Below the pieces are notes generated by a model. That model saw only the letters and a list, made by a program, of their open reading frames with translations. It ran no database searches and was not told the DNA's origin. Of a DNA stretch of 36,762 nucleotides, positions 3,845 through 17,947 are shown piece after piece. The first letter of the stretch is position 1; each line of letters opens with the position of its first letter. The position numbers and the translations under genes were made by a program. The stretch is taken from contig JAKPKU010000217.1 in assembly GCA_029553545.1 (NCBI GenBank), positions 1-36,762 of the forward strand. Direction: 5' to 3'. Source of the DNA: Candidatus Cloacimonadota bacterium (GTDB lineage Bacteria; Cloacimonadota; Cloacimonadia; Cloacimonadales; WRIO01).

Positions 3845-4027
3845 AAGGCATGCATACAATTACTTGAACGTGATTTTACTTAAAATAGGGATACATCCTT
3901 ATAACAAACAAAAATCAATTGATTTTTTACCTAACCAAAATAATGTAGGGGCGAGCTTTGCTCGTCAGTCCCGCAACGAAGCGAGGACCAAAAATACGAG
4001 GACAAAAAGAGAAAAGAGAGAAGAACA

Positions 4028-5329
4028 ATGTCTAAAAATATTGGAGTTATATTAGCAGGTGGTATAGGTGCGAGATTTCATGGTAATATCCCAAAGCAGT
4101 ATATGAAATTAAATGGGAAAGAAATCATTACCTATAGCATCGAGGCATTTAGAGAAGCTAAGAAGATTGATGAGTTTTTGTGTGTCGTCAATGAAGATGA
4201 GTTTATAAATAAGAATATAAAAGAAAAATATAATGTGAAATGCATCAAGGGTGGCAGTTCGAGAAATGAGTCTTTGGCAAACGCACTGTCGTATATTAAT
4301 GAAATGATCCCAGATTGCAATAAGGTGTTTATTCATGAGGCGGCGAGGCCCTTCATCAAAGGTAGTCTGATAGATAAATATCTTGATTTATTGGATGAAA
4401 ATGATGCGGTGATTACTGCTGCAAAAGTAACTGATAGTCTTGGCTATGTGGATGGAAATATTGCAGATCGTAGCAATTTCTTGTTGATACAGGCACCTGA
4501 GGCTTTCGATTTTCAGCTGTTGAGAAAGCATTTTGATGCAAAGTCAAGTATCACAGCTACCGTGCATCAATTGCCAAGTAGTGTTCGCATATACAATTAC
4601 TATGATTTTAAGTTTAATTTAAAAGTGACTTATCCAGAAGATTTGTTCATAGCCGAACAACTTATTAAACTGAAGTATTACGATAGAAACCATAACTTTT
4701 TGCAACATAAGCTGAGAATATCAAGGAAAAAGGCGTTGATTCTTGGGGCTTCAGGTGGTGTGGGCTCTGTGATAAAGGAGAAGTTTAAAGAGTTGAATGT
4801 GAATATCTTATCTCCTACACGAGAAGAAATAGACTTGGAGACAGTGACTGTTGAGGCTTTGAAAGAATATTGTAAAGATTTTAAACCTGATATCATCATC
4901 AATGCCGCAGCGTTTTCGGCTAAAGACGATGCAGGATTGGTTGCTATGTTTGACAAACTATTCAGTGTTAATTTGAAGTCAAACTTGGTATTGATGGAGT
5001 TTGCTGTGCAATTGAATAAAAAAGTGAACTTGGTGCTGTTTTCATCATCTTCATCGACCAGAGGCAGGAAGGATATTGCCCTTTATTCTGCGGCAAAGGT
5101 AGGAATAAATAGTCTGGTAGAGAGTTTGGCAAATAAGATGCAGGAGCAGGGCGTGTATATAAATGCGATTATCCCTGAGAAGATCAATACGCCGATGATT
5201 CAGAAATTGCATGATGGCAAGGTCAATGAAAGAGAGCTCTTGGATGTGGAATACATTATGGATGCAGTTGTTTTTTACGCTACAACTGACACTTTTGGCG
5301 ATTTGATTCATATTCGCAAAGGTCTGTGA
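4028..5329 (+). CDS. Bifunctional IspD-like cytidylyltransferase / short-chain dehydrogenase (Bcs1/Acs1-like; probable CDP-ribitol synthesis)
   Basis: 433 aa; N-terminal nucleotidyltransferase motif ILAGGIGARFHGNIPKQYMKLNGK; C-terminal Rossmann ILGASGGVGS and YSAAK (YxxxK). Confidence 0.85.
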   Translation: MSKNIGVILAGGIGARFHGNIPKQYMKLNGKEIITYSIEAFREAKKIDEFLCVVNEDEFINKNIKEKYNVKCIKGGSSRNESLANALSYINEMIPDCNKVFIHEAARPFIKGSLIDKYLDLLDENDAVITAAKVTDSLGYVDGNIADRSNFLLIQAPEAFDFQLLRKHFDAKSSITATVHQLPSSVRIYNYYDFKFNLKVTYPEDLFIAEQLIKLKYYDRNHNFLQHKLRISRKKALILGASGGVGSVIKEKFKELNVNILSPTREEIDLETVTVEALKEYCKDFKPDIIINAAAFSAKDDAGLVAMFDKLFSVNLKSNLVLMEFAVQLNKKVNLVLFSSSSSTRGRKDIALYSAAKVGINSLVESLANKMQEQGVYINAIIPEKINTPMIQKLHDGKVNERELLDVEYIMDAVVFYATTDTFGDLIHIRKGL

Positions 5330-9102: not shown

Positions 9103-9342
9103 GGTAAATGAGATTTGAAGCTCGGGAGGAGTTTTGGAATTTTGTGATTTAAAGTGCTGCTTTGAGATCCAAGGGTTGACGAGTTTATATAAAGACTTAA
9201 GTATAACTATCAGAAGGGTTTGGATTATTAGCTTAAGACTTATATTTAGCTTGCAATGCCATGCTGAAGACAAAGACTGTAAAACTGAGCATTGTGCTTT
9301 CCCTGCTCTTTTACAAAGAAATATCACAATTATCGCTCTTCA

Positions 9343-9714
9343 ATGATATCCGACAATCAAATGATAATGAAATATCAAAACCAAATGATGAGAAACTATA
9401 ACTTCGAAACTATTGTTAAATCGATGAGCAAACGTTTAAATTTTATTCAGAATAGCTTTATAGATAGTAAGAACACTAATAGCATAAAACCTGAATATAC
9501 ATAAAGACGTAATAATCATGATTTTAATCGTAAACTAAACATTCAAAAGTCATTAAGACAAGGGCAAAAGATGAACATTGAGAGCATACTTGATAACTCA
9601 ATAGTAGAAAAAGCACATTCAAAATCGGTTGAGATCATGGAAATGAGAGAGTATCTTCAAGTCAGTAATCAAATATCTTTTGTAAATGAAAAATTGTATA
9701 GAAGGATTGGTTGA
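9343..9714 (+). pseudogene. Interrupted ORF, possibly an N-terminal remnant of an IS4-type transposase
   Basis: One frame is open from 9343 to the stop at 9712 except for an in-frame TAA at 9502-9504; the fragments (SFIDSKN...HDFNRKLNIQKSL...VSNQISFVNEKLYR) loosely resemble IS4 transposase N-termini. Confidence 0.25.
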
Positions 9715-9759
9715 TTTGGTAAAAATTAACTATGAAAAATGGAACAGAAAGGAGGTTCT

Positions 9760-12228
9760 GTGGATAAAGAGAAAATAAGCTTACATGAATTTGTTTTTGC
9801 AGCATTGATGCAAAATATTGGTAAGGTTTTAAAAAGAGCTGAATTGCCGCATGAATCAACGGCTGTAAGCCATGAAGATTATCCTCATGCACCCTGGACA
9901 AATGAATTTTTGGCAAAGAACAAGAACAGTGTGGTATCGGAAGGTATCTGGCAAAGGATTACAAACCTTGCCTCTTTACATTATTCTGATAGTGAAGTGA
10001 ATCCAGAGGATAAGAAATTCCTGATGATGCTAAAAGCAGCAGATCAGATTGCTGCTGACAAAGATGAAAAGTCAAAGCAAGGTAACAAGAACTTGTCTAT
10101 GTATTCAGTATTTCAAGAAATAAGTTTGAAAAGTGATAAAAAAATTAATCATAGTTATGTCTTGCCAATTAAACCGTTATCACCAGAAAACATCAAACCT
10201 GAAAAGATCACGCCTAATTCAAAAGTAAAAGATTACCAAACGCTTTATACAGGTTTTATAACCGAGTATGAGTTACTATCAGAGGAATGGTCGGATCTTA
10301 CTGATTTTCCACGCTTCTTGAGTAGCGTTGACCACTTATTAAAAAAGCACTTTTATTGCGTGCCAAGCAATGTGCAAGAACAATATCCAACAGGATCTTT
10401 ATATCATCACAGCAAAACAACAGCACTAATTGCAGCGACTCTTTATGAGAAATACCATGAACACGAAGGCGAGCTCAGCTTGGAAGATATTAAAAAATCT
10501 ACAGGATATTTACTCATTGGTGGAGACCTGAGCGGAATCCAAAACTATTTATACGATTTAAACCCAGAAAACTCAAAATATAGCGCAAAGCTTCTGAGAG
10601 CACGTTCATTCAAAATAAAAGCACTATCAGATATGCTAATTTTTAAAATCATCAATGAATGTGGGCTTTGTCAACAAAATATCCTCATTAATGCTGGTGG
10701 GAAATTTATCCTATTAGCACCATATTCAGATGATATTAATGAAAAACTAAAAAAGATTCAGCAAGAAGTAGATGAAGCTTTTTATCACGAGTTCCTTGGT
10801 GCAGTTAGTTTAAACATGGACTGGTCTGTTAATGCCAAATTTATGGATTTAAATCAAGAAAACTTTAAAACAACCCTCAGCGAGTTTTTTGATCAACTTG
10901 AGAAAAGAAAATATACACGTTTTAAGAGCAGGTTGACAAATTCAGAAACTGGCAAATGGAATACAACTTCTTTTATCGTCAACAATGAGAAAATTGTTAA
11001 TGACAGCATGTGTAAAATTTGCAATCGGAGACTAAAAAGCCATAATAAAGAGGCATGCCATATTTGCAATAAAGAGATCAACTTGGGAGAAAACTTACCT
11101 AAAAAACAATATATCACTATTGCTATGAATGCTGAAGAACAAGGAAATGTTCAGCTATCTGATATTTCTCTATATTTAGATAGTGAAGAGGGTCTTACAC
11201 CAAGAAAAAATAAGTTTATAAAAGAAGGCATTAACTTTGAAGTATATGCGTATAAGAAAGGCGAAGGAAAAAGATACTTGGCATACCCACTAAAAGCTAC
11301 AGCAGCATATACTCATACAGACAAAGACGGTAGAATTACAGACTTTGAAGTTTTATCTAAGAAAGCAAGCGTAAATTGGGGTGATAAAGGAATAACTGGA
11401 TTACAAGCCAATGCAATAATAAAAGGTGATGTCGATGATTTAGGAGCCATATTCCAAAAAGGACTTGCTAAAGATGACAAGTTGTCATTAGCAAGATATG
11501 TTGCAACTTCATCAATGATGGACTTTTTCTTCTCTGAATACATTCCTTGGCTATTAGAAAATGAATCTGCTCATTTTAACAATGTAAGTATCCCATTTGA
11601 CCCTATTTACACAGTATATACAGGTGGGGATGACTTTTGCCTTGTGGGCCCCTGGCTGAACGTCTTGCTGTTTGCAAAGAGGTTAAGAGATGATTTTGCA
11701 AGCTTTACCTGCAACAATCCGGAAATACATTTCTCTTGTGGTATTGAGCTGCTACACGGAAAATCTCCTGTGAAATATTCTATCGAACAGACAGAAAAAG
11801 CTCTTGGTTTAGCAAAGAAAACACATGACCTAAAATATAAAGAAACATACAAGAATAGCGTATATGTATTTGAAACACTTATTCCGTGGGATGAATACAA
11901 TGACTTTATAAAAGAAGCTGAGACATATTTAAGCTGGTTGCAAGAAAATAATAAAGAAGGTTTTACTACTCAGTTGGCTTATCGCTTATTCAAATACCAG
12001 GAATCTTACATGAAAATAAATTACCGAAAAGAGGGAGAAAAATTTAGCATACGAGATAATTTATATTCAGCTCACATTAATTATGATTTGAATCGTAATG
12101 TTAAAAACAATCCGCTCGTATATAACAGTATAAAAGGATTAACTCAATTTCGCAAAGAAAATAAGATAGATTTTTTTAGGATACTAAAAGCAATACTGCA
12201 CGTTGCTATTTATGCAGATAGAAAATAA
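9760..12228 (+). CDS. cas10: Type III-A CRISPR Cas10/Csm1
   Basis: GTG start at 9760 preceded by AAAGGAGG (9748-9755). GGDD at 11623-11634 (YTGGDDFCLVG); Zn-finger CKIC...CHIC. N-terminal HD position reads QN (ALMQNIGKVLKRA). Confidence 0.95.
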   Translation: MDKEKISLHEFVFAALMQNIGKVLKRAELPHESTAVSHEDYPHAPWTNEFLAKNKNSVVSEGIWQRITNLASLHYSDSEVNPEDKKFLMMLKAADQIAADKDEKSKQGNKNLSMYSVFQEISLKSDKKINHSYVLPIKPLSPENIKPEKITPNSKVKDYQTLYTGFITEYELLSEEWSDLTDFPRFLSSVDHLLKKHFYCVPSNVQEQYPTGSLYHHSKTTALIAATLYEKYHEHEGELSLEDIKKSTGYLLIGGDLSGIQNYLYDLNPENSKYSAKLLRARSFKIKALSDMLIFKIINECGLCQQNILINAGGKFILLAPYSDDINEKLKKIQQEVDEAFYHEFLGAVSLNMDWSVNAKFMDLNQENFKTTLSEFFDQLEKRKYTRFKSRLTNSETGKWNTTSFIVNNEKIVNDSMCKICNRRLKSHNKEACHICNKEINLGENLPKKQYITIAMNAEEQGNVQLSDISLYLDSEEGLTPRKNKFIKEGINFEVYAYKKGEGKRYLAYPLKATAAYTHTDKDGRITDFEVLSKKASVNWGDKGITGLQANAIIKGDVDDLGAIFQKGLAKDDKLSLARYVATSSMMDFFFSEYIPWLLENESAHFNNVSIPFDPIYTVYTGGDDFCLVGPWLNVLLFAKRLRDDFASFTCNNPEIHFSCGIELLHGKSPVKYSIEQTEKALGLAKKTHDLKYKETYKNSVYVFETLIPWDEYNDFIKEAETYLSWLQENNKEGFTTQLAYRLFKYQESYMKINYRKEGEKFSIRDNLYSAHINYDLNRNVKNNPLVYNSIKGLTQFRKENKIDFFRILKAILHVAIYADRK

Positions 12229-12238
12229 AGGAGGGAAA

Positions 12239-12667
12239 ATGAATCAAAATAGACAAAGCGGAGGACAATGCTCATCTCAAAGACAGGGAGATAGGAAACA
12301 ATGTCCCACTCTAAATGGATTCTTTACAAAAGATGGATTAGTTAACTCATCTTGGATTAGTGAAAAAATTCAAGAATTTGCTGAATTTCTGTCCGCTGAT
12401 CGTAAATTTACAACTACTCAGCTCAGAAATTTTTATCATGAATATTTAAGAATACAAAACATGCCAGCCAAAAAAGAAGAAAAAATAATAATGGTAAAAA
12501 TGATTAAAGCAAAAATAAACTATAAGTCCGATAATGTGCCATATGACTTTATTAAGTTTACTAACAATTTGATTGATGAAATACAAACAAATGAATTATT
12601 CGATAAATATTTCGACAATGCATGTTTGATCATGGAAGCGCTTGTCGCTTATTACCCAAAAAGATAG
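12239..12667 (+). CDS. csm2: Csm2 small subunit of type III-A effector
   Basis: 142 aa from ATG 12239 after GGAGGG; TTTQLRNFYHEYLRIQNM resembles Csm2; position between cas10 and csm3. Confidence 0.88.
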   Translation: MNQNRQSGGQCSSQRQGDRKQCPTLNGFFTKDGLVNSSWISEKIQEFAEFLSADRKFTTTQLRNFYHEYLRIQNMPAKKEEKIIMVKMIKAKINYKSDNVPYDFIKFTNNLIDEIQTNELFDKYFDNACLIMEALVAYYPKR

Positions 12668-12675
12668 GAGGAGCA

Positions 12676-13368
12676 ATGTTAGAAAATAGAGTTATAAAAG
12701 GTTATATCTTATTAAAATCTGGCTTACATATTGGTGGTACCGAGGCAGGAATACATATTGGTGGAATTGATAACCCCGTTATAAAAAACCCTTTAACAGG
12801 ATTGCCATATATTCCAGGCTCAAGTCTTAAAGGTAAAATGAGATTCTTATTAGAACATGCTGAAGGCTTAGTCAAATCTGGCAATATACCAAATTACTCA
12901 GAAAATAATGTCGTTGCTAAAGTTTTTGGACATTTAGAGCATGATAAGCATTTAACTAAACCTACAAGGGTTATTTTTAGAGATTCACATATAATAGGAG
13001 CAATGAAAGAATTTAATATAGAAAATATTCTGGTTGAAGATATTGATCGTGATGTTGATGGTATTAGAGAGAAAATGGGTTCTGATTTTGTTGAAGGTAA
13101 AACGGAAGTTGTTATTGATAGACTATCAGGTACTGCTAAGCGCGGTGGGCTAAGACAAATCGAGCGTGTTTCTGCAGGTACAGTTTTCTCTTTTGAGATA
13201 ACTTTACGATCTTTTGAAGACAATGAGAGTGATAAGCATTTTAAGCTATTAAAGAAAGGATTAAAACTTCTAGAAAACGATGCTTTAGGTGGTTCGGGTA
13301 GCCGCGGAAGTGGTAAAGTTAAATTCTTTGGGCTGACTGATAATGATAAAGAATTCTCCTTAGAATAA
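12676..13368 (+). CDS. csm3: Csm3 RAMP (Cas7-like) subunit, target RNA nuclease
   Basis: GLHIGGTEAGIHIGGIDNPVIKNPLTGLPYIPGSSLKGKMRFLLE; GSGSRGSGKV glycine loop. Predicted catalytic Asp (GIDNPV) retained. Start after AGGAGGAGC. Confidence 0.94.
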   Translation: MLENRVIKGYILLKSGLHIGGTEAGIHIGGIDNPVIKNPLTGLPYIPGSSLKGKMRFLLEHAEGLVKSGNIPNYSENNVVAKVFGHLEHDKHLTKPTRVIFRDSHIIGAMKEFNIENILVEDIDRDVDGIREKMGSDFVEGKTEVVIDRLSGTAKRGGLRQIERVSAGTVFSFEITLRSFEDNESDKHFKLLKKGLKLLENDALGGSGSRGSGKVKFFGLTDNDKEFSLE

Positions 13369-13378
13369 AGGAGTATAA

Positions 13379-14377
13379 ATGAAGAATTATGAAATCAAAT
13401 GGTTATTAAAATCGCCTCTTTCAACTGAGTTAGAGAGCGATACTATTTTTGGCCATTTTTGTTGGAGCTATAGGTATCTAAAAGGTGAAGAAAAGCTGGT
13501 AGAGTTTTTAGATAAACTGAAGATAAAAGATATTAGCTTTATTGCATCAAATGGTTTCCAGGATAGGATTCTACCAATGCCGAAGCTGCCTTTAGATGCG
13601 AATGCGAGGGCAAGAATAGAAGATGAACTCAAATTTAGTTACGAGGAAAAGAGAAAAGAAATAAAGGCGATGAATACTATAAAATTATCTGATCTGAAGG
13701 ATTATGTAAATGACTTTTCTCTTGAAAAGCTGATTAGCGCTCATTACAAAGGAAAACTAAACCTATTGCCTGATAACAACAAAATGGCAAGCATTATTAC
13801 TCATAATACAATTAATCGACTTACTGGCACTACCTCTGTGGACATGGAAAATTTATTTAAAGAAATTGTTAATTTTTACCCTGACAATACAACTTTTTAC
13901 TCGTGGGTTAAGACTGAATATTTTAACCTAAAGGAAATGCAAGAAGTATTCACAATTATGAGCCAATACGGCTATGGTAAAAACAAGAATATCGGTAAAG
14001 GAAATTTCGATATTGAAGTAAATGAAATAGAGGAGTTGATCGAAACAACTGATAACATCAATGCTTGGGTCTTATTGTCAAACTGTGTACCCGATGAAAA
14101 TGATACAATTAACGTTATGTACAACAGCAAAGTTAAATTTGGGAAACTCGGTGGTAATGCGGCTCTGAAAAATTCACCGTTCAAGCATCCTATATTTATG
14201 TTGACACCAGGAACAGTTTTCTTTTCAAAACAGCAACCACATGGAACAATCTTAGAAAAAGTACACCCATTTGATGACAAGGTTATACAAAATTTATGTG
14301 CTTATACCATTCCAATCACTATTTCTCAAGATCTTATTGAAAAGATAAATACAAGGGAGGACAAACATGAATGTTAA
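13379..14377 (+). CDS. csm4: Csm4 (Cas5-like) subunit
   Basis: 332 aa; KSPLSTELESDTIFGHFCWSYRYLKGEEKLVEFL start, G-rich GYGKNKNIGKGNF. Confidence 0.93.
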   Translation: MKNYEIKWLLKSPLSTELESDTIFGHFCWSYRYLKGEEKLVEFLDKLKIKDISFIASNGFQDRILPMPKLPLDANARARIEDELKFSYEEKRKEIKAMNTIKLSDLKDYVNDFSLEKLISAHYKGKLNLLPDNNKMASIITHNTINRLTGTTSVDMENLFKEIVNFYPDNTTFYSWVKTEYFNLKEMQEVFTIMSQYGYGKNKNIGKGNFDIEVNEIEELIETTDNINAWVLLSNCVPDENDTINVMYNSKVKFGKLGGNAALKNSPFKHPIFMLTPGTVFFSKQQPHGTILEKVHPFDDKVIQNLCAYTIPITISQDLIEKINTREDKHEC

Positions 14378-15452
14378 AAATTATGAAATAAAGCTAAAAG
14401 TACTATCTCCCTTGCATATTGGCTCTGGTGAAACACTTAATCCTTTAAGATATGTTGTAAAAAATAATATCCTTTATTATCTCAATGAAAGCCAATATAT
14501 CAGAGAACTGTTAAAAACACCGAACTCGCACTTAGAACAAGTTGTTAAAACAGATAATATATATAATATTGTTAATTACTTCGTAGATTGTTTTGACGAA
14601 ACAAACACAGATACTTGGCAACATTCTTATAAAGTCGATAACCAATTTCAACAGGCTTTCGATAAAAACTTGAAAAGTCCTGATAATCAAAATAACTTAT
14701 TTGAATTCTATAGAACTGATCTTTTCAAAACACCTGTAATTCCTGGAAGCTCAATCAAAGGATGCTTTAGAACTGTTATGCTATCTGCAATGCAACGAAA
14801 GCTAAAGATTGAAGATGTTATGGAAGTAGTTGGTGATGGTAAAGAAAAACCTAATTCACAAAAAACTGAAGCGAAAATACTGGGCAACCTAAGCGTAAAA
14901 ATTACTGAAAAGGCAGGGAAGAAGCTGACGCAGACAAGTATCGACGTCGCAAAAGACCCTTTTAAGTATATCAAAATATCTGATATTGCAGTAGGAACCA
15001 GTGCTATGACAGTAAAGAAAATCTTTAATAAAAAAAATAACACTGATGAAGGTATTCCGTACTATGCAGAAATGTTGAATAAAGGAGATTTGGTTTACTC
15101 AGGTACTATGTCTATCGACAGTAGATTTGATATAGAAATAGCAAGAATACTTGGCACAGAACCTGTAAATACCTTTGAGTATTTCCTTAAATCAGCAAAA
15201 GAATATTATTCAAGAGTAATAAGAAAAGATCACGATTGGCTCGAAACAATAAAAAAGGTAGATACAATCAGAGAAATAATTTTACGTTTTAGTGAACTTG
15301 GAGGTAAACCTAATGCTGCGATATTTAGGCTTGGTAAAGGGCAGGGTTGTCACTCTTTGGCATTGAAACCTCTAAATCAAAGCCCCCGTTCAAGAAATCT
15401 CGCAGGTTGGGAACCTATAGGTTGGGTTCAGATCGAATTTAATGAAATATAA
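14367..15452 (+). CDS. csm5: Csm5 RAMP subunit
   Basis: 361 aa; KVLSPLHIGSGETLNP, PVIPGSSIKGCFRTVML, RLGKGQGCHSLAL; overlaps csm4 by 11 nt. Confidence 0.93.
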   Translation: MNVKNYEIKLKVLSPLHIGSGETLNPLRYVVKNNILYYLNESQYIRELLKTPNSHLEQVVKTDNIYNIVNYFVDCFDETNTDTWQHSYKVDNQFQQAFDKNLKSPDNQNNLFEFYRTDLFKTPVIPGSSIKGCFRTVMLSAMQRKLKIEDVMEVVGDGKEKPNSQKTEAKILGNLSVKITEKAGKKLTQTSIDVAKDPFKYIKISDIAVGTSAMTVKKIFNKKNNTDEGIPYYAEMLNKGDLVYSGTMSIDSRFDIEIARILGTEPVNTFEYFLKSAKEYYSRVIRKDHDWLETIKKVDTIREIILRFSELGGKPNAAIFRLGKGQGCHSLALKPLNQSPRSRNLAGWEPIGWVQIEFNEI

Positions 15453-15471: not shown

Positions 15472-15493
15472 GCACTGCCTAATAAGGCAGTGC
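15472..15493 (+). promoter_or_regulatory. Perfect 9-bp hairpin between csm5 and the CARF-RelE gene
   Basis: GCACTGCCT-AATA-AGGCAGTGC, followed only by a weak ATTATTA tract. Confidence 0.7.
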
Positions 15494-15519
15494 ATTATTA
15501 CCCAATACAAAGGAGAAAC

Positions 15520-16620
15520 ATGAAAAATCTATTAATAATAAGCACATGCGGAACAAGTATTCTTACCAACCTAAATAGAGGCGAAGCTCTGCTTTTTAAA
15601 TATTCAAATATCAAGAATATCAGCGAAATAGAGAATGAAGAAGAACGTGAAAGAATACAAAACATACTACAAAATAGTAAAGATAAGATTAATGGGGTTC
15701 AGATAGAAGAAGCTAAAAAACTATCTGCTGAGCTCAATGGCTTATTTACTTATTTCCAAGGCAAACCACCTGCAGGGACTGTTTTATATTTAGTCCCCAC
15801 AGACACACTTTTTGGTAAGTTTACTGCAGGATTAATACAAGATTACTTTGAAAACAGCTGCAATATTAAGCCAATCATGATAGAACAGACAGACCTGCAG
15901 ACTAAAGATCACTATCTCTTTCAAAATGCACTTGGTGAGTTAAGTGATCAGCTAAGTGATATTTATGAAACATCTAAAGAAAACTATGCGATTATCTATA
16001 ATCTCACAGGTGGGTTCAAAAGTGTAAATGCCTTTTTACAGACAGTAGCCCAATTCTATGCAGATGAGAGTTTTTATTTGTTTGAGAGTGCGAAAGAGCT
16101 GATGAGAATACCAAGATTGCCCGTCAAGCTGACTATAGATGATAATATCAAAGAGAATATCAACGCTATCAGAAAGATGGCGCAAGGGCTAACAATCAAA
16201 AAAGAAGAACTTCAAACGCTTACCCCCTTATTCTACTTTGAAATGGAAGGACAATTCTCTTTATCTCTATGGGGTAAATCTCTGTGGAATACGATTAAGA
16301 CAACAATATACTCGGAAAAGCTATGGGATAGTCCAACTGAACTTGTTGTATTTACCGACGAGTTTAAACGTTCAATAAATACGACAAAATTTACAGCGCA
16401 CAGAATCTACGAAATTAATAAGAAAGTCGATGACTTAATGAAGTTTGCTTATGATGGTATTAATCCTGAGTCTCTGGATTGCAAACCTCTACGCGGTAAC
16501 AAACTTGCCCCATCTACTCACGAATGTGATGCTTGGCATGATCAAGATGCAAAAAGGATATATTTTCATAAGGAGGGGAATAAACTCATTCTTGATAAAT
16601 TGGATAAAGCATTACATTAA
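15520..16620 (+). CDS. CARF-RelE fusion effector, Cami1-like
   Basis: Start ATG 15520 after AAAGGAG. N-terminal CARF (IISTCGTSILTNL; IYNLTGGFKSVNAF; resembles the APE2256/TIGR02619 group). C-terminal RelE-like pattern (VVFTDEFKRSIN...CKPLRGNKL...HECDAWHDQDAKRIYFHKEGNKLIL). Confidence 0.8.
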   Translation: MKNLLIISTCGTSILTNLNRGEALLFKYSNIKNISEIENEEERERIQNILQNSKDKINGVQIEEAKKLSAELNGLFTYFQGKPPAGTVLYLVPTDTLFGKFTAGLIQDYFENSCNIKPIMIEQTDLQTKDHYLFQNALGELSDQLSDIYETSKENYAIIYNLTGGFKSVNAFLQTVAQFYADESFYLFESAKELMRIPRLPVKLTIDDNIKENINAIRKMAQGLTIKKEELQTLTPLFYFEMEGQFSLSLWGKSLWNTIKTTIYSEKLWDSPTELVVFTDEFKRSINTTKFTAHRIYEINKKVDDLMKFAYDGINPESLDCKPLRGNKLAPSTHECDAWHDQDAKRIYFHKEGNKLILDKLDKALH

Positions 16621-16626
16621 AGCAAC

Positions 16627-17811
16627 TCAGTTCTCTCTTTTCTTGATTTTAAACAAATCTGCTAAGGTATCATCTATCTTTTCTGGGACAAGGTCAGCAG
16701 GATCAGGAGTTATTATTCTGAACTGTTCTAATCTTTTTTTGACATTATCTGTAGAATATGTCTCTTGATCCAGTGTAAGTAGATATTTTTTAACACCAAT
16801 ACCCATAAGGTTACTCAAGGCGTCGAGCTTGAAGATGGTATCATTTGCAATACTTTTATCATCACTGTCCTTCATTGATGTCTTGCACTCAATGAAATAC
16901 AGCCCATTATCTTTTGTAAATGCTATATCTATTTCATTTGGCAGATTCTCTTGCTTGATGTGAAAACCAGTTTTGATATCAGTTATTGCAAATTGGTTTA
17001 GATGGTGATAAATATACTCTTCAAACCAGCCACCACTAATGTAATCAATCCATTTTTTGGTAATATGTTGTTCTTTTCCCTCAAATTCATTTAGAACATT
17101 CACAATCCTATCTAAAAAAGCATATACATCATCTTTATCTTTTTCAAAAATATCTTTTAAGCTTAATGGTTTAACTGATCGTTGTTTGATCTCAGTGTAT
17201 GAAATCTTCAATTTCTTTTTATCATGAAACTTCTTACGTATTTCTAATAATAATGGGATGTGATCATGAAAGTATTTATCATTATAATAGCCATACATTC
17301 TTTCTGCACATTCCATATTATTAAGAACTGTGGTTTTTTTATTAGGCAAATTAATATTATACGCTTTCAAGTACCCGTTTACAGACAAGCGATAGCCAAT
17401 AGCATTCTCTGAGTGCTTTTCTTCTTTGCTGACTTTATAATAACTATTTTTTCCAATAGCTAAATAAAAAAAGCTTGCTTTTGAATACTCTCTAAAGTGC
17501 TCGTAAATAGCGAGGCTTGTTACTTTTGTACCTCCTGTTAAATTTATCAAATAAGTGCTTTCTTTATCAAAATCTTGATTTTTCAGCTGGTAATAGACAT
17601 CATGGAAACTATCTGCTATTACCTGTACACTATTAATCTTTACATTATTGCCATTGATAAAGTGTTTAATAGAATCAAGTGCCTTGAAATCCTTTTCTGC
17701 CTCTTGGGTGGTAATAATAATCAAATTATCAAAATCATCTTCAAATTGTTTGAGAAATAAGACATTTGGTATCGATTGCTTGCTTAGCGCTATTACAGCA
17801 TATTTTGCCAT
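16627..17811 (-). CDS. CARF-PD-(D/E)XK nuclease effector, Card1/Can2-like (DUF1887)
   Basis: Start likely at internal Met (17809-17811) with GAGGAGGG upstream. CARF (YAVIALS, YLINLTGGTKVTSLAIYEH); nuclease motif GGWFEEYIYHHL...NEIDIAF...FIECKTS. Confidence 0.88.
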   Translation of the reverse strand: MAKYAVIALSKQSIPNVLFLKQFEDDFDNLIIITTQEAEKDFKALDSIKHFINGNNVKINSVQVIADSFHDVYYQLKNQDFDKESTYLINLTGGTKVTSLAIYEHFREYSKASFFYLAIGKNSYYKVSKEEKHSENAIGYRLSVNGYLKAYNINLPNKKTTVLNNMECAERMYGYYNDKYFHDHIPLLLEIRKKFHDKKKLKISYTEIKQRSVKPLSLKDIFEKDKDDVYAFLDRIVNVLNEFEGKEQHITKKWIDYISGGWFEEYIYHHLNQFAITDIKTGFHIKQENLPNEIDIAFTKDNGLYFIECKTSMKDSDDKSIANDTIFKLDALSNLMGIGVKKYLLTLDQETYSTDNVKKRLEQFRIITPDPADLVPEKIDDTLADLFKIKKREN

Positions 17812-17947
17812 TTTTCCCTCCTCTACAGTACTTTTTTGCTCATGTCTATCAGTTGTGTTCATTTGGCTCTATAAGTAAAGATGAGCTGTTATAGTAATAA
17901 AGAAAGTATATAGCCCTGATTGGACAAATACACACTATCTTTATTAA

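Follow-up and report, generated by a model that had tools for sequence, protein, structure and literature searches.

The csm operon in this stretch of 36,762 nucleotides from a Candidatus Cloacimonadota bacterium (the window) raises the question of what a type III-A complex does when the catalytic pair of its Cas10 nuclease site has been replaced and its cyclase motif is intact. The source genome, the one copy available, is a fragmented assembly of 2.88 Mb in 268 contigs. The operon runs csm1, csm2, csm3, csm4, csm5 and a CARF-RelE gene, with a Can2/Card1-like nuclease gene on the opposite strand, and all seven of these frames are open over their full length. The csm1 (cas10) frame spans positions 9739..12228 of the + strand and encodes 829 aa from ATG 9739, with a TIGR02578 score of 554 bits against a cut-off of 170. 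It is followed on the same strand by csm2 (12203..12667, probable start ATG 12239; TIGR01870 and PF03750), csm3 for the target RNA nuclease subunit (12622..13368, probable start ATG 12676; TIGR02582, 197 bits), csm4 (13379..14377; TIGR01903) and csm5 (14367..15452; TIGR01899). Csm1 to Csm5 occur together and all five score above the NCBIfam cut-offs, which identifies the system as type III-A (Csm). Alignment to a solved Csm3 (4qts) showed that the catalytic-Asp context of Csm3, GGIDNPVIK, is retained.

The part of Csm1 with the changed dyad reads ALMQNIGKVLKRA. Gln25 and Asn26, numbered from ATG 9739 and encoded by CAA AAT (9811..9816, +), replace the catalytic HD dyad and align with H14/D15 of Staphylococcus epidermidis Csm1 (SeCsm1; 7uzw). 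A likelier start is GTG 9760, with AAAGGAGG ahead of it at 9748-9755, from which the pair would be numbered 18-19. The exchange of HD for QN had been proposed from the window alone, with the suggestion that Csm1 families, structures and close relatives be compared, and the comparison bore it out: our alignment comprised 82 proteins, and HD is present in all 75 besides the window's that could be read at this column, including every such Cloacimonadota relative. Relatives use CAT or CAC followed by GAT or GAC, so that the Gln and Asn codons of the window each lie one base from a His or Asp codon.

Two further conserved residues of the HD region are changed. Tyr82 (9982..9984, +) replaces the second His of a conserved HH, where 94% of the other Csm1 proteins have His, and Glu110 (10066..10068, +) replaces an Arg conserved in 97% of them. 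The original prediction that the downstream His persists thus held for one half of the pair only (HH has become HY), and R110 is lost as well. When columns conserved in at least 90% of the sequences were compared, the window departed from 4 of 11 in the HD region (H25Q, D26N, H82Y and R110E) and from 1 of 48 elsewhere (Fisher 0.003), figures that are descriptive because the sequences share ancestry. The contrast relies on Q25 and N26, which were the starting point of the analysis: when both are set aside, the counts become 2 of 9 and 1 of 48, with a hand-calculated Fisher value of about 0.06, and we regard it as suggestive, not decisive.

In a tree calculated with the HD region left out, the window belongs to a Cloacimonadota clade of nine members that has full SH-aLRT support, and it sits on a long branch of 0.84 changes per column; its closest Csm1 relative is 38% identical at best. 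The window alone has QN and the other sampled members of the clade all have HD, so the loss is most simply placed on the window's own branch. The plasmid collection yielded only distant Csm1 proteins, 21-26% identical among the matches listed, and a single-sequence scan of the genome contig collection found nothing. Some observations on other Csm1 genes were made along the way. In a bin labelled Desulfonema, Csm1 (L071, 7812-10190) departs from 5 of 10 conserved HD-region columns, which may be a frame or assembly fault, and keeps HD. A contig labelled Erysipelotrichaceae (L087) carries a Csm1 near the Cloacimonadota type and may be mis-binned. An apparent Csm1-Csm3 fusion of 1219 aa (L033/L113, 1138-4794) was rejected, as it reads through an assembly gap, a run of N.

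The cyclase motif and the Zn finger show no such change. The GGDD motif (residues 629-632; 11623..11634, +) is invariant in both the relatives' and the 32-sequence alignment, and the four Cys of the Zn finger (C425, C428, C440 and C443; 11011..11067, +) are invariant among relatives and near-invariant in the 32-sequence alignment; both had been described as intact, correctly. By its GGDD, then, the protein is a putative cyclase-active Cas10; with QN in place of the dyad, it would fall outside the HD-active class, the remaining residues of the site, probably D102 and H224, being present.

Two genes downstream encode candidate effectors of the cyclase product. The first (15490..16620, +) encodes a CARF7-RelE fusion, a Cami1-like mRNA interferase that matches the PADLOC model CARF7--CARF_RelE over its full length (335 bits, E 1e-100), as well as PF09651 and 8phb. 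The second (16627..17862, -) encodes a Can2/Card1-like CARF-PD-(D/E)XK nuclease with a Card1 CARF domain and a Card1 endonuclease domain (PF23400 and PF09002), both above cut-off, a match to Card1 (6wxw, E 3.6e-21) and a retained active-site context NEID...IECK. The HD change had been said to fit these two effectors. We dropped that argument because the pair does not discriminate: HD-intact relatives carry the same or an equivalent pair, CARF-RelE with Can2 in one operon in L035 and CARF-RelE with a CARF-adenosine deaminase in L036, and it is therefore no marker of HD loss. More generally, a single locus with two cA4-activated effectors is common (PMC11229360). As a separate observation, the Cad1-like CARF-adenosine deaminase gene of L036 (14841-16904, -) adjoins CARF-RelE in the place of the window's Can2, so the second effector has been swapped within the clade.

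Taken together, these features make it probable that the III-A complex acts as a cyclase-only alarm, with its HD ssDNase site lost and its guide RNA provided in trans. For Csm1 itself, the best reading is that ssDNase activity would be lost and cyclase activity retained. This is what the original prediction suggested: conservation among relatives and a full-length model that keeps the Csm1 fold give good support to loss of the HD active site beside an intact cyclase motif, and the loss of activity itself is what we infer. The complex would bind a foreign transcript, the RNA being cleaved through Csm3, and the Cas10 cyclase would make cyclic oligoadenylate, probably cA4, which may in turn switch on the neighboring CARF-RelE mRNA interferase and the Can2 nuclease. 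Since the Cas10 HD site is lost and Can2 would be switched on, any DNA damage would be Can2's, without cutting by Cas10.

A second lesion, overlooked in the original prediction, lies beside csm1. A Cas6 profile built from nine Cloacimonadota relatives matches two pieces of a cas6 relic on the + strand, an N-terminal piece (9134..9328; profile 6-69, E 3e-6; 28% identity by tblastn) and a C-terminal piece in another frame with one internal TAA (9343..9696; profile 177-287, E 4.6e-15). The gap between them spans about 107 profile positions, and the glycine-rich loop is absent. An independent search of the whole genome also had these two pieces as its top hits. All nine Cloacimonadota relatives in the profile have an intact Cas6-like gene directly 5' of csm1; in the window, the locus Cas6 that is usual though non-obligatory in type III-A is represented by the relic at 9134-9696.

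The relic raises the main rival reading, namely, that the entire III-A module is slowly decaying after the loss of cas6, with no guide loaded, the complex idle and the HD changes the first visible damage to csm1. No CRISPR array was found in the window, as such decay would have it, and retention is lower where damage would be showing: of the residues invariant in the clade, Csm1 keeps 15 of 23 in the HD region and 90 of 102 outside it. However, genes that had become neutral together should decay together, and that is not the pattern observed. Csm3 keeps 59 of 61 clade-invariant residues and the non-HD part of Csm1 the 90 noted above, whereas the cas6 relic keeps 13 of the 39 Cas6 residues that could be aligned. 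That cas6 has decayed while csm1 and csm3 held indicates that selection still acts on the complex. The open state of all seven frames likewise speaks against decay of the module. Csm4 keeps 60 of 73; for csm2 (25 of 35) and csm5 (11 of 18), the selection signal suggested by retention is less clear than for csm1 and csm3.

With its own cas6 a relic, the complex would have to receive guide RNA in trans, and decay of the module is further disfavored by the presence of a second Cas6, seen as its tail, and an array end elsewhere in the genome. Cas6 profile searches of the genome gave no match, but the conclusion that the genome has no Cas6 was overturned by the start of contig C88, where 41 codons correspond to the C-terminal end of Cas6b (PF17262, E 4e-9, just below the curated cut-off). 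Only these last 41 codons of the I-B Cas6b are visible, since the gene runs off the contig end; past them lie cas8b, cas7 and a partial cas5 of type I-B. A further contig, C247, carries cas3, cas1, cas2, cas4 and the end of a CRISPR array, whose repeat terminates, in reverse complement, in ATTGAAAC, an ending that we take to suit type III guide-RNA handles. The most likely suppliers of guide RNA would be the array and Cas6b of the resident type I-B system. In the HD-intact locus L035, a CRISPR array lies 5' of cas6 from about position 118, with a repeat containing ATTAGAATGCAGTTGACCCGACTTAGGGGATTGAGACA; this array is absent from the window.

On this evidence we consider decay of the whole module unlikely. 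The fuller account of the alarm reading, in which the III-A complex is in mid-reduction, having shed Cas6 and the Cas10 nuclease while being selected as an RNA-triggered alarm that runs on I-B guide RNA, is a serious possibility, to which we would give slightly less than an even chance.

Far less probable is that the site still functions, with Asp102, His224 and the new Gln and Asn binding metal for some nuclease activity, or with another pair having taken over. The catalytic set of Lactococcus lactis Csm1, His13, Asp14, Asp80 and His206, forms a permuted HD motif (PMC8964682). The window has lost the first two residues of this permuted site and probably keeps equivalents of the other two: D102 (10042..10044, +) probably corresponds to LlCsm1 Asp80, judging by position, and H224 of the SLYHH segment (10408..10410, +) probably to His206, both being invariant in the 32-sequence alignment. 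Their survival makes residual metal binding possible on sequence grounds, and the fold around them is predicted to persist as well. The full-length AlphaFold model of the window Csm1 has a pLDDT of 86 and a pTM of 0.89, and its best PDB matches in Foldseek, which extend over its length, are all Csm1 (query TM about 0.6-0.8, E down to 3e-35), with a TM of 0.78 (query) or 0.85 (target) against L. lactis Csm1; together with PF18211 and PF22335, these matches identify a Csm1 fold with B domain and second palm. A model of the N-terminal domain alone (136 residues) gave no meaningful match in a structural search, which is what one would expect were the permuted HD domain to depend on His224, later in the chain. 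Against a working site, the H14A/D15A mutant of S. epidermidis Csm1 has been described as having an inactive HD domain (PMC10808066), H82 and R110 of the window protein are lost as well, and its only HD dipeptide belongs to the second palm (KKTHDLK), a distant part of the sequence. A sequencing or assembly error, conceivable in a fragmented metagenome bin of which one copy is available, is hardly credible, as three separate sites of one functional region are changed (25-26, 82 and 110), the frame is open, and the HD-region residues affected are not those that random error would pick.

The cyclase-only state is already known and common; what is new here is the decayed cas6 directly 5' of csm1. 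In the survey of Hoikkala et al. 2024 (PMC11229360), a recognizable HD is present in 65% of III-A Cas10s and 39% of all type III Cas10s, thus missing in 35% and 61% of loci, and a cyclase in 92% of type III, although the HD call rests on an HD-seeded profile, so that degenerate sites like that of the window might land in either class. The cyclase-only Cas10s of that survey resemble the window's in combining a cyclase motif, no HD motif and CARF effectors in the locus; the window differs in that the HD fold is retained with the residues alone changed and in that the clade's other sampled members have HD. The III-A Csm complexes of L. lactis, S. epidermidis and E. italicus share with it Csm1 to Csm5, the Csm1 fold, the Zn finger, GGDD and the Csm3 catalytic-Asp context, but the window departs from them in the changes of HD to QN, HH to HY and R110 to Glu and in having no intact cas6 in the locus. 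Closer to home, the Cloacimonadota III-A loci L035, L036 and L037 likewise have csm1 to csm5 followed by CARF-RelE, with a second CARF effector, as in the window, in L035 (Can2) and L036 (CARF-adenosine deaminase), whereas in all three HD is retained and csm1 is directly preceded by an intact cas6.

The closest parallel to the proposed guide supply is in Marinomonas, where a type III-B complex uses the guide RNAs of a type I-F system, whose Cas6 matures them (PMC5576922), and, as the window's complex would be, is fed by the array and Cas6 of another system. That sharing was shown by experiment, whereas the sharing between III-A and I-B here is one that we infer. The case bears on whether loss of a system's own Cas6 accompanies reliance on a type I system, and the combination of a still readable lost cas6, a persisting fold and an HD loss on one branch makes it a usable natural case for studying how type III complexes shift from DNA cutting to signaling.

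Two other features of the window lie upstream of the operon. A palindromic unit, TAATGTAGGGGCGAGCTGTGCTCGTCAG, recurs six to seven times at 283-520 at a spacing of 37-40 bases, with a related single copy near 3941; as there are no spacers, this is not a CRISPR array. An ORF at 4028-5329 appears by eye to join an N-terminus resembling a nucleotidyltransferase to a C-terminus resembling an SDR.
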